A stretch of 40,107 bases of DNA from a virus. Below the pieces are notes generated by a model that was given only the letters and a program-made list of their open reading frames with translations, was not told the DNA's origin and searched no databases. Shown piece after piece: positions 19,212 to 27,122 of this stretch (position 1 is its first letter; every line of letters begins with the position of its first letter). A program made the position numbers and the translations under genes. The stretch covers positions 1 to 40,107 of the IMG/VR virus record IMGVR_UViG_3300046517_001329; one strand, 5' to 3'.

Positions 19212-20348
19212 GTGGCACGGAAGAAGATCGAAGGTACTGAGAAGTTGAACGGGCTTGCCGAGGATAAACAATCCCCGGACAAGCCCGCTCGCCGTGTGAT
19301 TACACCCCCTAAAACCGCGGTAGAAAAGCCAGTTGTTAAGGTGGCCGGCGGGCGAGTGGTGAAACCAGTACCTGCAAAGGATCAAAAAAAGCCAGTAAAA
19401 AAGGCGAAAAAGCCCGCGGCGACCACCCGAGCAACATCCGCAAAGGCCAAGCCAAAGCAGCCATTAGTCACCGGTGGGGCGGCTGGAAAAGTCAAGGTAG
19501 GCAAAGCAGTTGCGCTCAACAAGAAAGAGGTCGAAGCCTTACAGGCCGGGAATCTCCACGGTTTGGATGAGCGTCAGGCGAAGTTCATCGATCTCTGGCT
19601 GGTCACACAGAACGGCACTCAGGCGTACCAGGATGCGGGCTTTGAGTGCAAATCCGATGCGGTGGCGGCAGCAGGTGCCAGTCGACTGTTAAGAAAGGTT
19701 AAGGAGCACCCGTATACGCTGGCTAAGCGTGCCGAGCTGTTCGCCAAGACCGAAGAAATAACCAATCGAGTCATTGAACGCGTCTACGGCGCGGCTATGG
19801 CGGACCCTCGAGAATTGGCCGAGGTGGTTTATCGGTGCTGCCGCTACTGCCATGGGGATGGTCACCGGTACCAGATGACCCCGCGCCAGATGGAAGAGCG
19901 CCAGGAGCGGCACAAACAGGCCGTGGCTGAAGCGAAAGAAGCCAAGCGCCGGCCACCGGTTTATGACCCGCTGGGCGGGCTGGGCTTTGACATGACGTTA
20001 GACCCACACCCGGAGTGCCCGGAGTGTAACGGCGTCGGCGTGCGGAACGAGATCATCAATGACACCCGCTACCTGTCCCCTGGCGCTCTGTCGCTGTACG
20101 GCGGCTGGAAGACGACCAAAGACGGCGGCGCAGAAGTAAAAATCGCCGATCAGCGCCCGTACCTGGAACTGTTGGGCCGGATCTTCAACATGAACATCGA
20201 GCCGGCGCCGCCGGTAGTGCTCCCTGTGAGCAATGAGCAGCTGCAAGACATCTATGCGCGAGGCCTGGAGAAAACCAATTTACAGCGCCAGGCAATGGCC
20301 GATCGCGCGGCACAGATCGCTGATTTGGATAACGGTGGTGACGCATGA
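19212..20348 (+). CDS. terS: Terminase small subunit with histone-like tail and DnaJ-type zinc motifs
   Basis: 378 residues, about twice a typical small terminase. Residues 1-100 are a Lys/Ala/Pro-rich disordered tail like histone H1 or AlgP (KKPVKKAKKPAATTRATSAK). Residues about 117-190 are a terminase_2-type DNA-recognition domain (LDERQAKFIDLWLVTQNGTQ, then AYQDAGFECKSDAVAAAGAS, and an RVYGAAMADPRELAEV helix). Two CxxCxGxG motifs follow (CRYCHGDGH near 215 and CPECNGVGV near 270), a DnaJ-like zinc centre. GTG 19212 has AAGG about 10 bases upstream. TerS selects phage DNA for TerL; the tail probably adds non-specific DNA binding. Confidence 0.85.
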   Translation: MARKKIEGTEKLNGLAEDKQSPDKPARRVITPPKTAVEKPVVKVAGGRVVKPVPAKDQKKPVKKAKKPAATTRATSAKAKPKQPLVTGGAAGKVKVGKAVALNKKEVEALQAGNLHGLDERQAKFIDLWLVTQNGTQAYQDAGFECKSDAVAAAGASRLLRKVKEHPYTLAKRAELFAKTEEITNRVIERVYGAAMADPRELAEVVYRCCRYCHGDGHRYQMTPRQMEERQERHKQAVAEAKEAKRRPPVYDPLGGLGFDMTLDPHPECPECNGVGVRNEIINDTRYLSPGALSLYGGWKTTKDGGAEVKIADQRPYLELLGRIFNMNIEPAPPVVLPVSNEQLQDIYARGLEKTNLQRQAMADRAAQIADLDNGGDA

Positions 20349-20635
20349 CGCTTAGCGCCGAACGGCAACCAACCCCGCAGAACATCCGCAAGGCCCGGAA
20401 AAACAGGAGTCTGAGCGAGAGCGCTGCCGGGGAACTGATCTACGTGAGCCGTGAGTCGTGGCGCCTGTATGAGAAGGGCACGACCAAGATGAAGTTGGGG
20501 CTGTGGGAGCTGTTTCTATTCAAAACCGGGCAGCTCTGGCTCAAGCCCATTGTTGAAGAGCGTCCCAAGGCCAACCGGCCAGGACGAATCGCAAATCTGA
20601 GGCCGTTCGCGGCCAACACGCTAGGAGCTGACTGA
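20345..20635 (+). CDS. Small HTH protein between terS and the TerL-like nuclease half
   Basis: 96 residues. PTPQNIRKARKNRSLSESAA, then GELIYVSRESWRLYEKGTTK, has the spacing of a Cro/XRE HTH followed by WELFLFKTGQ. The tail is basic. ATGA overlap with terS and a TGATG overlap with the next gene place it firmly in the packaging operon. It may be a DNA-binding accessory or a local repressor. Confidence 0.7.
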   Translation: MTLSAERQPTPQNIRKARKNRSLSESAAGELIYVSRESWRLYEKGTTKMKLGLWELFLFKTGQLWLKPIVEERPKANRPGRIANLRPFAANTLGAD

Positions 20636-21927
20636 TGGGCAATACCGCCAAAGCAAAAAAACAAACACACGACACCGATCTGCTGCTGGCCAGCAACGTG
20701 TCAGTGTTCAAGCAGTGGCTGATCACTCAGGGCATCGCGATAACGGCGCCAGACCATGCCAATATCGCGCGTGGTGTGCATTACTGGGTCGAAGTGCCAG
20801 GCTGCAAGCCCGTATCGGTCCAGGAAGCCTTTGGCCGTAAAACGCGCTACGCACAGACCCATTACCGCCTGCGTCCGCTGCTGAATGGATTCCTTACCTC
20901 CCCTATGGCCAGCGCCATCAAGGAAATCGTGCGGCACAAGCCAGCCGGCCCGCTGCAAGTCGTGGTTAGTGGCAAGGTTCAGCCCCCCGCCAAGGCCGCG
21001 AACAGCGAGGTTCCAGCGATCCTTCAGGCCCAAACGAAGAACAGCGGCGAATTCCTGCTCAGTGGTGCGGATATTGGCCGCGCGTTGAACATCGATAGCC
21101 CTATTCCTGAAGGTGCACTGGTCAAGCACGTATTTGGTGCGCGCGTTGCCGGTGGCGTTGGGCGCGGGCTTACCGTTGTCGCTCACATGAAGGTATATGA
21201 GCGCGCGGCCCCTAATGGTCGGACGTGCCGCGTTGCGGAGGTTGTCGACTACCCCATCCACACCGATCGCACCGACATCGAGCAGCAAGCGGCGGAACTG
21301 TTCGGGCGGGCTTCAGCGCTTCCAAACGCCACAATCCTTGTCGATGTGATGGGTTTGGGCATTCAGTTCCTCAAGCACCTGGAGGCCATGCAAAGCCCGA
21401 CAGTCAAGCGATACGGTCTGATGATGGGCCAACCATTGCCGAAGCGCGGAGACGCTGCTCGCTTTTACAACCGTCGCGCCGAATGCAGTGTGCTGGCCGC
21501 GCAGGCGATCAAGTCAGGCGACTTGAAGCTGGCCCGCCCCTTGAGCCTGCATGCGAGCAATTACGACGTAGCTCTTGAGCTGCTGGGGTCGAAGATGCCG
21601 TACTCATTCGACGAGCTGGGGCGCTACCGGCTGCCCAAGGCAGCCGATCGAGAGGAATTACCATCACCTGACCTGTTCGAAGCCATATCCCTGGCGTACC
21701 TGAGCACAGAGCTGCCAATTGCAGCTGAAAAGCCGGCCAAGGCTCAGCCCTCGTTCGCCGTTGTGCTAGGTGCACCAGCCAAGCCCCTGGACAAGTTCCT
21801 CATCGAGCTGCGTGACGACTTCGCGCTCACTTGCCCGTTGGTGAAGGATGCAGAAGAAAGCATGGGCGCCTTTGCTAATCGCCGATGGGTGTACGCGCAG
21901 GCGATGATTGAAGCACGGCCCGTGTAG
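20635..21927 (+). CDS. TerL-paralogous pseudo-nuclease (TerL C-terminal half on a different N-terminus)
   Basis: 430 residues. Residues about 142-362 align along their length with the nuclease half of TerL (24266): FLLSGADIGRAL with YLLSGAMLERAI, ILVDVMGLGIQFL with IVIDVSAMGVQFM, and MPYSFDELGRYRLP with LPYSFDELGRYKIA. Two of the RNase H-like catalytic aspartates are kept (D237, D346, matching TerL D367 and D471). The first is lost: TerL D299 is R170 here, and D307 is G178. There is no ATPase domain; residues 1-140 are an unrelated domain, and the last ~65 residues are extra. Catalysis is therefore doubtful; a structural or regulatory packaging role, or a decaying duplicate, is inferred. Confidence 0.8.
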   Translation: MGNTAKAKKQTHDTDLLLASNVSVFKQWLITQGIAITAPDHANIARGVHYWVEVPGCKPVSVQEAFGRKTRYAQTHYRLRPLLNGFLTSPMASAIKEIVRHKPAGPLQVVVSGKVQPPAKAANSEVPAILQAQTKNSGEFLLSGADIGRALNIDSPIPEGALVKHVFGARVAGGVGRGLTVVAHMKVYERAAPNGRTCRVAEVVDYPIHTDRTDIEQQAAELFGRASALPNATILVDVMGLGIQFLKHLEAMQSPTVKRYGLMMGQPLPKRGDAARFYNRRAECSVLAAQAIKSGDLKLARPLSLHASNYDVALELLGSKMPYSFDELGRYRLPKAADREELPSPDLFEAISLAYLSTELPIAAEKPAKAQPSFAVVLGAPAKPLDKFLIELRDDFALTCPLVKDAEESMGAFANRRWVYAQAMIEARPV

Positions 21928-21955
21928 TCCGGGGATAGACCTGGAGCGTACAAAC

Positions 21956-22126
21956 ATGGATTGCCGATTTTGCAAAGGCGATCGCGTCACCTGGCGGCGG
22001 CCTCGTAACAGCCCCGCCTACACCTACTGCCGTGACTGCAAACGCCGGAACTGTGAGGCCCTGGCCCACAAGCTCCCGCACGGCGAAAACGAATGCGACC
22101 GCGCACAACTGCGGCTCAAAATTTAG
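21956..22126 (+). CDS. Small zinc-finger protein
   Basis: 56 residues. CRFC at residues 3-6 and CRDC near 26-29 form a four-cysteine zinc finger with Arg-rich surroundings (DRVTWRRPRNSPAYTYCRDC), suggesting nucleic-acid binding. ATG 21956 has GGAG nine bases upstream. It is transcribed with the packaging genes. Confidence 0.65.
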   Translation: MDCRFCKGDRVTWRRPRNSPAYTYCRDCKRRNCEALAHKLPHGENECDRAQLRLKI

Positions 22127-22129
22127 GGG

Positions 22130-22624
22130 ATGTACATGCAGGCTTTATCTATCGCGCCACCCGCTGCGCCTGCTGGGGTCACGCTGAGCGAGCGCCAGCG
22201 CTACCGACTGGCCACCGTGAACTTGATCATCAAGTCGTTGGCAGCGTGCGGGCTGAAAATCTTCGGGCGGGATGATGCAGTAGCAAGTCTGGAGCCAAAG
22301 CGCTTGGGTGGCTTCTTTTTTACCCCGCCAGTCGATGGCGCTCGCCCGGTGGATCTGGAAGCCCGTGTGATTGGCCGCGCGCGTCTGCTGCCCGGCTTCA
22401 ATGGCACCTATGCCGAGCAGCGGCTGGTGCGTTGCCTAGCTACCTACGTGCTTGAAGGTCGCAGTGTGCCGGCGGCCATGCTGGCGCAGGCCCTGATGGC
22501 AGACAACAACCAGTATTTCGACCAGGTAGAGGTCAATTTCGCCCGGGTGATGGATGAGTTCCGTTTCACCCGAGCGTTTGCCAAGCCGGTCGCGATCAAC
22601 CGCAAGACCGGGCCGATGTTATGA
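22130..22624 (+). CDS. Packaging-operon protein of unknown function
   Basis: 164 residues, mostly helical, no family recognised. LSERQRYRLATVNLIIKSLA near residues 19-38 and a C-terminal basic stretch (FAKPVAINRKTGPML). AGGGG precedes ATG 22130. ATGA overlap with the next gene. Confidence 0.6.
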   Translation: MYMQALSIAPPAAPAGVTLSERQRYRLATVNLIIKSLAACGLKIFGRDDAVASLEPKRLGGFFFTPPVDGARPVDLEARVIGRARLLPGFNGTYAEQRLVRCLATYVLEGRSVPAAMLAQALMADNNQYFDQVEVNFARVMDEFRFTRAFAKPVAINRKTGPML

Positions 22625-22884
22625 GCCAGACCATCACCAACCGCATCACTGGCGAGACGCTGACCGTGTACCTGGAACTGGGCGACGATTTGTGGCTGCG
22701 CGATGAAGGGGGCGAGATCGAGCACGTTGAGCGCGCCCACCTGCCTGCCGAACGCTGGTGCTTCGACGGCACCCGTAACGCTGGCGATGACGTTCCGCGC
22801 ACCACCCTACGACTCGACTTCCCGTCGCTGCCCGCCCGGATGTTTGACCTGTCTCCCCACGCACCTGCGAGCCCTGCACCATGA
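22621..22884 (+). CDS. Small beta-rich phage protein
   Basis: 87 residues: TITNRITGETLTVYLELGDD, then a strand with RDEGGEIEHVERAHLPAERW. Looks like a small beta-barrel or decoration fold, but no family is recognised. ATGA overlaps at both ends show translational coupling with 22130 and 22881. Confidence 0.6.
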   Translation: MSQTITNRITGETLTVYLELGDDLWLRDEGGEIEHVERAHLPAERWCFDGTRNAGDDVPRTTLRLDFPSLPARMFDLSPHAPASPAP

Positions 22885-23480
22885 CCCTGTTCTTCAGCCG
22901 TGAACATTTCGAGCGGTCCTGTCGTCACTCCGGCATCAGCGATCTGACCTACAACACCGACACAGGCGAGTACGTGAACGCCCACACACAAAAGACGTTC
23001 CAAGTGTGGGAATCGCTGGCGCAATCCAAGCAGGGCACCAAAACGCCCACGGCCTGGCTGACTCGCCGCCGTGGCAAGGATCAGGGTATTTCTGTACCGC
23101 GCCCACACGCCAACATGAGCCATGAGCAGTTGGCACAGCGCGCCGCCAATGGTTGGGAGCCGCCGCTGGCGCTGTGGCCGGCCATGCCTGTGACCAGCGC
23201 CAGCGAGGACGCAATCCTCAGCGAGCGCCAGCGTCAGAAGTCGGTGAAGGGTTACCACCCGGAGCTTGACCTGCGCTATCGCAACGATGAGCTGCTGCGC
23301 GCGGCGACAGGGTACTTACTCCAAATGCTGGTGCCGGACTACGCCAGCACCCTCTGGCCATGGCCGCACGTCCCCATGAAAGCCGAAACACGTCTGCGGG
23401 CGATCGAGAAGGCCGGCGCGCTGTTGGTTGCCGAGCATGAGCGTCTGCGCACACTGCAAACCAACGAGAAGAGTGAGTAG
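22881..23480 (+). CDS. Packaging-operon protein of unknown function
   Basis: 199 residues. The N-terminal ~75 residues (GISDLTYNTDTGEYVNAHTQ) form a small domain; the rest is helical. LRYRNDELLRAATGYLLQML lies near residues 133-152. Function not recognised. ATGA overlap with the previous gene; stops 4 bases before the ATPase-like paralogue. Confidence 0.6.
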   Translation: MTLFFSREHFERSCRHSGISDLTYNTDTGEYVNAHTQKTFQVWESLAQSKQGTKTPTAWLTRRRGKDQGISVPRPHANMSHEQLAQRAANGWEPPLALWPAMPVTSASEDAILSERQRQKSVKGYHPELDLRYRNDELLRAATGYLLQMLVPDYASTLWPWPHVPMKAETRLRAIEKAGALLVAEHERLRTLQTNEKSE

Positions 23481-23484
23481 CCCC

Positions 23485-24207
23485 ATGAAGAGCCAGCCTA
23501 AGCTTTACAAGGATTGGCGGTGGCCAGCATTTGTGGAGCGCTATTCCAGCGACTTGCAAGCCTTCGCGACCGAGGTGTGCGGCCTTGAGTTGGCGCCAGC
23601 ACTTACGAGCGCCTACACCATCGCCATCCAGCCAGGCAGCCGAGTAACCATATCGTCCGACCTGCGCCCGCAAAACATGGCCGCTATCAGCCCCCTAGCG
23701 CCCATCGCTATTTGGCGCCTTCTATTCCGCCCGGAATCGGTGACGATTGTCGCTGTTCCCTACGGCCTGATGAATTCCCGCCGCAATGAGTATCAGGACG
23801 TGCTGCGCGCTATCAGCTCAAGCGCCTTTAACTGGCTCTCCGATTACATAAAGGGTAATCGGGAAGCCATACACCTGGGCGACCGCTACTCGGGGGCGGT
23901 GATCCGATTCCGCAGTGCACTGGCCAACTGTCCGGAAGCGCTAGCCGGCGCGCACAGTCATGACCTCTTTTGGCTGATGGAGGACGCCCACGACATCCCT
24001 GATGCTTGTTTTGGCGTGGCTTGTGGCTCGCTTACTGAGCCCAGCAGCTGCATGGCGCTCTCAGCTCATGCCGGCGCCCGTAACGATGCCGACAGATGGT
24101 TTCTATCTGCTACCCGAAATGACCTGAACAAAGAGCACGGCGGTCATTGGGATGTCATCGATATTGACGGCCCAGCAGTGGTGCAAAGCCACGCCAAAAG
24201 CGTCTAG
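23485..24207 (+). CDS. TerL-paralogous pseudo-ATPase (TerL N-terminal half)
   Basis: 240 residues that align with the ATPase half of TerL: RWPAFVERYSSDLQAFATEV with RWPAFIERYAFNLYAFAVEA, PEALAGAHSHDLFWL with PENLAGTHGDNLLWL, and IPDACFGVACGSLT with IPDENFGVIGGALT. The Walker A loop of TerL (SGHGTGKT, residues 62-69) is replaced by SDLRPQN (58-64) with no Lys. The Walker B DE (169-170) is ED (166-167). It ends where the TerL nuclease half would start. It should not hydrolyse ATP but could still assemble with TerL. ATG 23485 is chosen; an upstream in-frame ATG at 23428 overlaps the previous gene. Confidence 0.8.
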   Translation: MKSQPKLYKDWRWPAFVERYSSDLQAFATEVCGLELAPALTSAYTIAIQPGSRVTISSDLRPQNMAAISPLAPIAIWRLLFRPESVTIVAVPYGLMNSRRNEYQDVLRAISSSAFNWLSDYIKGNREAIHLGDRYSGAVIRFRSALANCPEALAGAHSHDLFWLMEDAHDIPDACFGVACGSLTEPSSCMALSAHAGARNDADRWFLSATRNDLNKEHGGHWDVIDIDGPAVVQSHAKSV

Positions 24208-24265
24208 CTGGCGCTTGTAGAGTGATAGGGGCCGGGGAACTGGTCCCTTTGTGTTTAAGGATCAT

Positions 24266-25816
24266 ATGGCCAAGCAAAAGCCCAAGAGTCTGCGTTTAGA
24301 GGCAGATCCAAGGTGGCCCGCGTTCATCGAGCGTTACGCATTCAACCTGTACGCATTCGCGGTTGAAGCGTGCTTGATGGACGTCACTCCGCAACAGCAA
24401 GAGCTTTTTGATGAGTCCTCAGTCTTTGGCTGCCGGGTATCGGTATCGTCTGGCCACGGTACCGGTAAAACCCGCAGCTTCGGCGTTATCTGCCTCTGGC
24501 ACCTGCTGTGCTACATGAATTCCAACACCTACGTGACCGCGCCGAAGCTCAAGACGGTGCGAGAGGGCGTGTGGAAGGAAATCACCACCATGCTGGCCGA
24601 GATCCGCAAAGGCCCGCATGCGTGGATCGCTGACTATGTGGTGATCCAGGCCGAGAAGGTCTACGTCGTCGGCAACAGCGCCACCTGGTACGTCACCACC
24701 CGTACCGCACCGCGCGGCGCTCCTGAGAACTTGGCCGGTACCCACGGCGACAATCTGCTGTGGCTGGCGGATGAGGCCTCAGGTATTCCGGATGAGAACT
24801 TCGGCGTGATCGGTGGTGCTCTGACCCATGATAACAACCGGTTCATCATGGCCAGCCAGCCCACGCGATCGACCGGGTTCTTTTGGGAAACCCACCATGG
24901 CCAGTCGATCTACCGCGGCGGCCCGTGGGTGCCACTGGTATTCAACTCCGAAGAGAGCCCGATTGTTTCCCTCAAGTTCATCAGGGAGAAGCGCCAGCAG
25001 TACGGCGGCACCGACGAAGCTGAATACCAGATCAAGGTTAGGGGGATGTTCCCGACCAACCTCAGCAAGTACCTGCTGAGCGGCGCCATGCTTGAGCGCG
25101 CCATCGCGGCGGCGAGCCCGATTCTGCCAGGTGAAGAGTGGGGCCATTTGATCATCGTCGACGTTGCTGCTGGCGTGGGTCGAGACAAGACCGTGGCCAC
25201 GCACCTACGCGTCAGTGGCAAGGGCGACCGGATGGCCAACGAGCGGCGCCGCAAAGTGGAAGTGGTGGATATCCCGATCTACAGCGCTACCGAGGACTGG
25301 ACGCCGCTGGCGGTCAAGCTGCGCGACTACGCCATGCGCCTGCCGAACGTAACGATCGTGATCGACGTGAGCGCCATGGGTGTGCAGTTCATGCGGCGTC
25401 TACAGGAACTGCAAGAGGGCAGCATGATCATCCAGGGCGTGCAGTGGGGCACCCGTCCGCACTCCAACGAGAACCGCAAGCGATTCATCAACCAGCGCGC
25501 CCAGTGCACCGTCCACGCCACCGAGGCGATCAAGGACAACGTGGTCAAGCTGGTGCCTAAGCACAAGCGCGACCTGATAGACCAAGGCTCCCGCCTGCCT
25601 TACTCGTTCGACGAGCTGGGGCGCTACAAGATCGCCACCAAAGAAAGTATGGCAGCAGACGGACTGTCATCGCCTGACCTCTTCGACACCATCTGTATGG
25701 CCTTCCTGGAGGACGTGAACTACGTGGCGTGCACCGAAGAAACAGCGGTGGCCAAGTCTTCGCGCGCAGAAGCGTCCCTGAACAAAGCTAACGACATGTT
25801 TGCCGACGTCGCATAA
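24266..25816 (+). CDS. terL: Terminase large subunit TerL
   Basis: 516 residues, normal for TerL. N-terminal ATPase: Walker A SGHGTGKT (62-69), Walker B LLWLADEAS with D169-E170, and a coupling-motif-like ASQPTRSTGFFW. C-terminal RNase H-like nuclease: D299 in LIIVDVAAGVGRD, D367 in IVIDVSAMG, D471 in SSPDLFD. All catalytic elements are present. It is the motor and headful/cos cutting enzyme that drives DNA into proheads with TerS. AAGGA five bases before ATG 24266; a GTG at 24251 is less likely. Followed by two unusual hairpins before a LytTR-type gene. Confidence 0.95.
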   Translation: MAKQKPKSLRLEADPRWPAFIERYAFNLYAFAVEACLMDVTPQQQELFDESSVFGCRVSVSSGHGTGKTRSFGVICLWHLLCYMNSNTYVTAPKLKTVREGVWKEITTMLAEIRKGPHAWIADYVVIQAEKVYVVGNSATWYVTTRTAPRGAPENLAGTHGDNLLWLADEASGIPDENFGVIGGALTHDNNRFIMASQPTRSTGFFWETHHGQSIYRGGPWVPLVFNSEESPIVSLKFIREKRQQYGGTDEAEYQIKVRGMFPTNLSKYLLSGAMLERAIAAASPILPGEEWGHLIIVDVAAGVGRDKTVATHLRVSGKGDRMANERRRKVEVVDIPIYSATEDWTPLAVKLRDYAMRLPNVTIVIDVSAMGVQFMRRLQELQEGSMIIQGVQWGTRPHSNENRKRFINQRAQCTVHATEAIKDNVVKLVPKHKRDLIDQGSRLPYSFDELGRYKIATKESMAADGLSSPDLFDTICMAFLEDVNYVACTEETAVAKSSRAEASLNKANDMFADVA

Positions 25817-25941: not shown

Positions 25942-26328
25942 ATGGAGTTGCGCCGCTACAGGAAGAACCACCGGCTGCGGGCCGAGAAAGTCGATTCAGC
26001 CATATTCGTGGCCTTCTGGTCGGATGATAAATTTGTGTGGGCGCTGGACGCTCAAGGTGTCGAGTGGATGTTGTTTCATAAGCACTCACTCAAAGAGATC
26101 GAGGTAGGCGATACCAGCCTTACCCGAGCCCATCGGGGCAGTCTGATACGCGTGAGCGCGATCGATCGGGTCATGTCGCGCAACGAGCAACACAAATGCA
26201 AGCCTGATTACTTCTGTGTGGTGGGTGGGCGTGAATTCACGGTGTCCCGTACCTGCCGGCCTTCGCTCTATGCGCTATATCGCGCCCACGTTGCAGAGCA
26301 CGGGTTTGTGCCGGCGGTGGCAGCATGA
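25942..26328 (+). CDS. Phage LytTR-type DNA-binding protein
   Basis: 128 residues. From about residue 55 the sequence follows the LytTR pattern: SLTRAHRGSLIRVSAIDRVM, then DYFCVVGGREFTVSRTCRPS, with the characteristic HR-x-x-L-I/V, I-x-x-V and VSR elements and a final Leu-rich segment. LytTR domains are beta-rich DNA-binding modules usually linked to response-regulator receivers. No receiver is present; the first ~50 residues are a small basic/strand segment. GAGGAAATAG precedes ATG 25942. Located between packaging and structural genes, it is a candidate late-gene regulator. Other beta-rich folds could mimic the pattern. Confidence 0.6.
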   Translation: MELRRYRKNHRLRAEKVDSAIFVAFWSDDKFVWALDAQGVEWMLFHKHSLKEIEVGDTSLTRAHRGSLIRVSAIDRVMSRNEQHKCKPDYFCVVGGREFTVSRTCRPSLYALYRAHVAEHGFVPAVAA

Positions 26329-27122
26329 AGCGCAGCCGGCACGAGGACGACAACCGGGCCTATCTCGCCGCGACAGGTCAACTGAGCAAAACCGAAAGGA
26401 CTGGGCAGACCCGCAACTTTGACTACTTCGGCTCCAACAAGGTGCGCCCGGCGGGCGTATCCCTGAAGCCGAGCGACGTGCCGGCACTGGTGACCGCTGC
26501 GCTCGCTGGCGCCGGTCCGATCAAGCAGGGCGAGGCCTTTGAGCACTTTCTGGCGGTGGTGTGCGACAACTACCGGTTCCACGCCTTTCACTTCATCATC
26601 GCCGGGCCGCGCAGTGCTGGCGGGCGCCGTCGTGCAGTCATGCTGAGCAAGCGCACGGTGAACGGTAACGTCGAAATGCCTCAAGCCTACGCCGCCCAAC
26701 TGGTGGGCTACGCCGCCGCACTGGGTAACCCTCGGGTGATGATCAGCGTGTTGTCGTTCTGCTGCGATCTAGTGCGCTGCCTTGTTCGTAGTGTGCCGAA
26801 CAGCATGGAATGGGAAGACGCCAAGGTGCAGTGGCCGCCGGAGTGCGAGTCATTGCGCGGGCAGTATCAGGACAATTACGCGCTGGGGTTCGATCGCTAC
26901 AAGCAGGCGTCCACCACCAAGGCCGTCAAGTGCCCGGCCATTGACGTGCTGGCTGAGCAAGTGTCGGCGATGGCGCCGAGCATAGACGCACAGGGGCGTA
27001 TCGGCCTCAACCGCCCGGGCGACAGGATGGAGAGGGAACTGGAGGCCCTGTGCATGCTGTATCTGGACGAAGAGCGCGCCCGCCTTGAAGGTGGCCACGC
27101 CGACACGTTGCTGGCCAGCTGA
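26325..27122 (+). CDS. Phage protein of unknown function after the LytTR gene
   Basis: 265 residues, no recognised family. The N-terminus is basic/polar; the centre is helical with two cysteines in a hydrophobic helix (ISVLSFCCDLVRCLVRSVPN, about 147-166); the C-terminus is an acidic helix (ELEALCMLYLDEERARLEGG). ATGA overlap with the LytTR-type gene and a terminator straight after show it ends the packaging transcript. Confidence 0.65.
   Translation: MKRSRHEDDNRAYLAATGQLSKTERTGQTRNFDYFGSNKVRPAGVSLKPSDVPALVTAALAGAGPIKQGEAFEHFLAVVCDNYRFHAFHFIIAGPRSAGGRRRAVMLSKRTVNGNVEMPQAYAAQLVGYAAALGNPRVMISVLSFCCDLVRCLVRSVPNSMEWEDAKVQWPPECESLRGQYQDNYALGFDRYKQASTTKAVKCPAIDVLAEQVSAMAPSIDAQGRIGLNRPGDRMERELEALCMLYLDEERARLEGGHADTLLAS

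Follow-up and report, generated by a model that had tools for sequence, protein, structure and literature searches.

Why would a phage element that encodes an apparently complete terminase large subunit (TerL) also carry separate genes resembling single TerL domains whose active sites are lost? Few phage proteins are as conserved as TerL, which triggers bacterial immunity and is used as a phage marker gene. The question is raised by a 40-kb virus record (40,107 nucleotides, the whole stretch analysed, referred to here as the window), in which an earlier note described an intact TerL accompanied by two complementary, catalytically degraded halves, and proposed either pseudoenzyme subunits that assemble with or regulate the packaging motor, or a duplication in decay. 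The coordinates, frames and residues given there for the three genes (including R170, G178 and the Walker A and B changes) were all reproduced.

Gene order in the TerS-TerL interval

Seven genes lie between TerS and TerL in the window, two of them TerL-derived: U, and a gene encoding a pseudo-ATPase (Table 1). Both belong to the same operon as the intact TerL. To these halves, the only two recognized earlier, is added a third TerL-derived gene (the 26325 gene), which had been missed and is separated from TerL by one small gene. The claim that all frames overlap their neighbours holds at the TerS end of the interval, where the 96-aa HTH-like gene overlaps TerS by 4 bases and U by 1 base, but not at the other end, where the pseudo-ATPase gene starts 4 bases after the preceding gene and TerL begins 58 bases after the pseudo-ATPase gene. 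A consensus scan, the only method applied, found no promoter-like sites within the interval. Between the pseudo-ATPase gene and TerL lies a hairpin resembling a terminator (9 pairs, 24227-24248; a consensus match only), which may separate the expression of the two genes.

Two other genes have unusual features of their own. TerS is long (378 aa), with a basic N-terminal tail, a Terminase_2 match spanning residues 118-327, and weak zinc-finger-like matches (CxxCxGxG type) within that domain at residues ~208-277; its sequence differs strongly among relatives. The C-terminal ~90 residues of the 199-aa gene product match nine PHROGs of unassigned function and very different lengths, and this stretch is apparently a shuffled phage domain.

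Table 1. Features of the TerS-TerL region of the window
Feature	Coordinates	Strand	Basis or remark
TerS (Terminase_2 family)	19212..20348	+	family match
96-aa HTH-like gene, conserved next to U	20345..20635	+	
U, framework protein with inserted TerL nuclease-like domain (residues ~136-375)	20635..21927	+	sequence and profile matches
Inserted TerL nuclease-like segment (TerL 265-501)	21040..21759	+	tblastn; absent from L008, L015 and L033 orthologues
Conserved 56-aa gene, TerS-TerL interval	21956..22126	+	
Small gene, function unassigned, TerS-TerL interval	22130..22624	+	
Small gene, function unassigned, TerS-TerL interval	22621..22884	+	
199-aa gene directly before pseudo-ATPase	22881..23480	+	C-terminal domain common to several PHROGs
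Pseudo-ATPase (TerL residues ~3-231)	23485..24207	+	Walker A lost, Walker B DE->ED
Intact TerL, P1 PacB type	24266..25816	+	all ATPase and nuclease motifs present
26325 gene, a heavily eroded TerL nuclease half (TerL 272-481)	26325..27122	+	hhalign, tblastn; catalytic Asp positions lost

Homology of the copies to TerL

Over 96% of its length, the window TerL shares 34% identity with P1 PacB, which places it in the PacB family, and it is intact, as the earlier note had said. Residues 136-375 of U (430 aa) align with TerL 265-501 (38% identity, E=4e-39), and residues 2-195 of the pseudo-ATPase (240 aa) with TerL 3-198 (31% identity, E=1e-27); the latter protein also gives a profile-profile match to TerL 9-231 (E=2.3e-35) and matches phrog_5902 (6e-12), the same PHROG family as TerL. 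The 26325 protein matches TerL 272-481 by hhalign (E=4.5e-10, and 2.6e-9 in a second run with controls), its orthologue in one relative matches TerL by tblastn (E ~9e-6), and in the alignments the two proteins have similar starts (SPILPGEEWGH against GPIKQGEAFEH) and a common YA-x-x-L-x-N pattern. When the TerL profile was compared with neighbouring families, only TerL, U, the pseudo-ATPase and the 26325 protein matched, all others giving E-values of 0.27 or worse and reversed-profile controls 0.5; the homology of the copies to TerL is therefore beyond chance, and U and the pseudo-ATPase do not belong to unrelated families.

None of the three copies matched a PADLOC model, and thus a known anti-phage defence protein, at E<=0.1. 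Structure models of U and the 26325 protein, built from alignments of 5-6 sequences, had mean pLDDT values of 48 and 53, and these low-confidence queries gave no significant Foldseek matches; RNase H-like folds (RNase H, RuvC, RNase T, Ago, the G20c terminase nuclease) were common among the non-significant matches of U, and are treated here as weak indications only. A search of viral contigs with the single pseudo-ATPase sequence returned nothing, while an alignment-based search gave matches.

Loss of active-site residues

The G20c terminase requires D294, D347 and D429, of which D294 is indispensable, and in T4 D409 is important (PMC5389553). These residues correspond to D299, D367, D474 and D307, respectively, of the window TerL, with D299 and D367 assigned by motif and position and D474 by alignment with Sf6 gp2. 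The third catalytic aspartate of Sf6 gp2 aligns with D474, not with D471.

In U, D299 is R170, D307 is G178 and D474 has become E, while the D367 equivalent is retained. Five U proteins have the same pattern (D299->R, D307->G and D367 retained in all), D474 being E in four and D in the fifth. D299, the first metal-binding aspartate, is missing from every nuclease copy found, often with D367 and/or D474 retained: arginine replaces it in the five U proteins, valine in L029, G407 and CP018759, and lysine in Acinetobacter, and it is eroded in the 26325 family, most members of which have lost the catalytic aspartate positions. In the pseudo-ATPase, Walker A SGHGTGKT is replaced by SDLRPQNMAA and the Walker B DE by ED; the Walker A loop, including its lysine, is lost in 8/8 Pseudomonas ATPase halves, where the Walker B DE reads ED or EG. 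D299 and D367 are present in all TerLs compared, and D474 in the ten of alignment A4. The window TerL has all that marks an active enzyme (Walker A and B, D299/D367/D474), and the halves fall short of it in Walker A/B, in the set of three catalytic aspartates and in the ATPase-first single chain. Judged by these residues, the half copies look catalytically dead.

A nuclease domain within a framework protein

The earlier description of U as a nuclease half applies to its nuclease part, which is TerL-derived but embedded in a framework (the N-terminal ~120 and C-terminal ~50 residues) unrelated to TerL. In every relative of the group, U sits in the same slot, preceded by the 96-aa HTH-like gene and followed by the 56-aa gene. 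Its middle is a TerL nuclease domain in the window, L006, L007, L010 and L011, and a different stretch in L014 and L029; in L008, L015 and L033, U has 196-200 aa and the nuclease insert is absent. The insert-free forms, together with the variable middle, indicate that U either received the nuclease domain by insertion or exists as insert-bearing and insert-free alleles that replace each other.

Relatives, retention and exchange

By TerL, the relatives of the window, itself from a Pseudomonas phage-plasmid, are P1-type phage-plasmids. The close ones are elements of 64-83 kb: CP048608 is a circular plasmid from P. fluorescens DR133, another is a P. azerbaijanoccidentalis contig, and the rest are IMG/VR contigs; P. 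putida pKF715C, P. atacamensis SM1, P. psychrotolerans and Burkholderia plasmids are more distant. A scan of 399 Pseudomonas genomes added one full-length-type TerL match (in G132, with a break near residue 66) and weak partial matches in two more genomes; none of the three has extra TerL half copies.

The same gene order, for which a search had been proposed, was found in five related genomes. TerS and TerL are also present in genomes from which copies are missing, namely the nuclease insert in L008, L015 and L033 and the ATPase half in L015 and L033. Absence from close relatives, which the earlier note would have counted against its proposal if accompanied by random stop codons, is thus real, but no stops were seen where copies are present: the frames are open in five to eight genomes across large synonymous distances. 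Values of dN/dS are 0.11-0.36 for the pseudo-ATPase, 0.09-0.30 for the 26325 gene and 0.17-0.35 for U, with dS near saturation in several comparisons, several of them involving U, so that the U ratios are rough. In the closest pair (L006-L011), dN/dS is 0.04 for TerL, 0.11 for the pseudo-ATPase and 0.09 for the 26325 gene. These ratios indicate that the TerL-derived copies are retained under purifying selection, in line with the retention suspected earlier; open frames, conserved slot and purifying dN/dS make decay unlikely, and the proposal of a decaying duplication finds no support.

In phylogenetic trees, the ATPase halves form a single group apart from all TerLs (support 99/98), and the U nuclease copies and the 26325 copies each form one group. 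AU tests did not reject a single clade for the nuclease copies (p 0.17-0.47), and the trees fit one or several origins.

The copies are also exchanged. In a 200-base scan of L006 against L011, identity is 93-98% across most of the region but drops sharply to 58-66% in the nuclease insert; dS for U in this pair is 1.16, against 0.09-0.33 in adjoining genes, so the U gene was exchanged. Between the window and L006, the pseudo-ATPase is 51-60% identical and flanked by neighbours at 82-94%. TerS of the window has diverged too, to 68-83% in most blocks, and exchange is thus not confined to the TerL copies. Within the region, however, TerL varies least, and the two TerL-like genes rank with those that vary most. 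By these comparisons, the TerL-derived genes behave as exchangeable alleles, and their divergence could reflect ordinary phage mosaicism.

Dead TerL pieces in other elements

Searches of related records with the TerL profile identified further copies in other positions. A nuclease half lies directly 3' of TerL in L029 (3300025735_000009; D299->V, D307->Y), within a 482-aa open frame ~30 kb from TerL in G407 (3300046458_000091; D299->V), and in a 340-aa gene far from TerL in CP018759 (D299->V, D367->N); G407 and CP018759 are Pseudomonas-type elements. In Acinetobacter defluvii (CP029389), a 567-aa fusion directly after TerL contains a nuclease half (residues 75-309) followed by an ATPase half (361-562), the motifs of both being lost. 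This reversed order is the same as in the window, where it had been taken to mean that the halves are not simply one broken gene; that conclusion stands as regards the insertion into a framework protein, but the order itself may reflect tandem duplication.

In E. coli P1-like elements, a 364-aa protein corresponds to an ATPase half with Walker A GHGTGKS changed to PHGIGET (K->E) and the Walker B DE to NS or NA. It occurs in 100 of 5,426 complete E. coli genomes, each match covering at least 80% of the query (pacB matches 599 of the same genomes), and the five copies examined are all open, with dN/dS of 0.21-0.51. The gene follows isaA (ssb-isaA), between ssb and hxr-ddrB. In reference P1, IS1 and isaB occupy the corresponding slot (P1 22626-24132 vs L048:1880-3755); isaA is common to both and 95% identical.

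A single TerL only was found in P1, Rb1, Pantoea, Ideonella, Burkholderia, Nevskia and several viral contigs, some of which are fragments. TerS adjoins TerL in P1 and Xanthomonas phage Rb1, and several genes separate them in the Pseudomonas group. Two candidates were set aside: a second full TerL in CP018759, with scores identical to the first, was treated as an assembly overlap, and a split second TerL in Vibrio campbellii (NZ_CP050473, i.e. CP050473; L040, L047), 99-100% identical to the intact TerL and located within a repeated stretch, was not counted, this frame-broken copy being probably an assembly artefact or a recent duplication. The TerLs of P. atacamensis SM1 and A. defluvii carry an intein exactly within Walker A (SGHG/TGKT; L015:9992-12268, L039:2977-4959), and the L019 TerL has an interruption close to that position, which makes this a recurrent site in the TerL family.

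Possible functions

The best reading of these sequences is that P1-type phage-plasmids repeatedly turn single TerL domains into separate proteins that appear catalytically dead. Such copies would work through binding, without catalysis and in trans: presumably keeping a TerL surface without its activity, they could sequester or mislead something that recognizes TerL, the most likely target being an Avs-type host immune sensor that detects TerL. The sensors Avs1-4 respond to TerL or portal (PMC12931631), and in Pseudomonas phages genes for interference and counter-interference, tab and anti-tab, are known from the TerS-TerL interval (PMC10884400). Dispensability, allele swapping and, in other elements, distance from the packaging genes argue for a trans-acting mimic rather than a core motor subunit. 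The P1 annotation gives ssb sigma-70 promoters and a C1 operator and places pacA-pacB after the late promoter LPpac, which suggests that the E. coli ATPase half, located after ssb-isaA, is expressed before TerL. Against decoys stands the position of the window copies in the packaging interval, which would also fit a packaging role. We tentatively favour the view that the copies are binding-only TerL mimics, most likely decoys against TerL-sensing immunity. Somewhat more doubtful is the broader proposal that dead single-domain mimics arose several times independently, also among the common P1 relatives of E. coli, and are directed at proteins that read TerL, either as decoys against immunity or as poisons for competitors.

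It is unlikely, though the earlier note offered it as one of two possibilities, that the dead halves are accessory motor subunits or regulators. In that role they would become part of the TerL ring or cap it, bind to pac DNA or to TerS, and adjust initiation or the headful cut. In its favour are their position, two between TerS and TerL and the third just beyond TerL, their complementarity, their conserved order in five relatives and the phi29 ATPase as a precedent, whose vestigial nuclease has kept DNA binding (PMC7672431); the copies are indeed TerL-derived, dead-looking and retained. However, they come and go while TerS and TerL stay intact, they are strongly exchanged whereas TerL is the most conserved gene, other elements carry them far from packaging genes, and P1 has none, all of which weakens the case for assembly with, or regulation of, the motor.

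Less probable again is a use against competitors, in which the mimics would interfere with packaging in related phages or satellites that superinfect, as dominant-negative poisons of their TerL or TerS, with alleles that spare the element's own motor. Allele exchange and patchy presence are consistent with such weapons, as are the tab and anti-tab genes in the same interval of other Pseudomonas phages and the blocking of small terminase by satellites (PMC10884400); yet the window copies, lying in the packaging interval where the consensus scan found no promoter-like sites of their own, would be co-produced with the element's own TerL.

That the copies are neutral, slowly decaying leftovers of TerL tandem duplications is very improbable: partial copies with lost active sites, in a nuclease-ATPase-TerL-nuclease order like a broken tandem array and with a reversed Acinetobacter fusion compatible with the same origin, might suggest it, but the frames have stayed open over large synonymous distances, dN/dS is well below 1, the pseudo-ATPases group apart from all TerLs, and the insert is in frame within a conserved framework gene.

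Comparison with known systems

No description of TerL half-paralogues was found in the open-access literature, so the earlier statement that no described phage has this arrangement holds there, but public records with the same arrangement exist, annotated as hypothetical proteins. A family of phage-plasmids that time and again retains dead TerL domains as separate, fast-exchanging genes would offer a test case for TerL-sensing immunity, and one of its candidates occurs in P1 relatives of E. coli and is thus near a laboratory workhorse. For annotators, 'terminase large subunit' matches can be pseudoenzymes, which matters because TerL serves as a marker gene.

Homologous fold segments are common to the P1 PacB family and the window copies; in P1, pacA and pacB are adjacent and there is one TerL, in contrast to the seven intervening genes, two of them TerL-derived, of the window. 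In the phi29 packaging ATPase, a vestigial nuclease domain has retained DNA binding (PMC7672431), and in both systems a TerL-type nuclease domain is retained after catalysis was lost (in the window, as judged from residues); in phi29, however, the dead domain is part of the sole motor protein, whereas the window encodes separate proteins beside a full, apparently active TerL. The Tab/anti-Tab system of Pseudomonas phages such as JBD26 similarly places accessory genes of phage-phage competition in the TerS-TerL interval, but TerL homology is not reported for it, and Tab acts on tail assembly (PMC10884400). Avs (AVAST) sensors, which read TerL or portal (PMC12931631), are the proposed opponent, for which the phage genes would be decoys. 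A further parallel is the E. coli ATPase half (MH422554 AXF39147, annotated 'terminase large subunit'), likewise a lone half with ruined Walker A and B motifs; it differs in its slot after isaA and in C-terminal ~90 residues of its own, and with 35% identity to E. coli PacB and 21-26% to the Pseudomonas halves, it is probably of separate origin from them.
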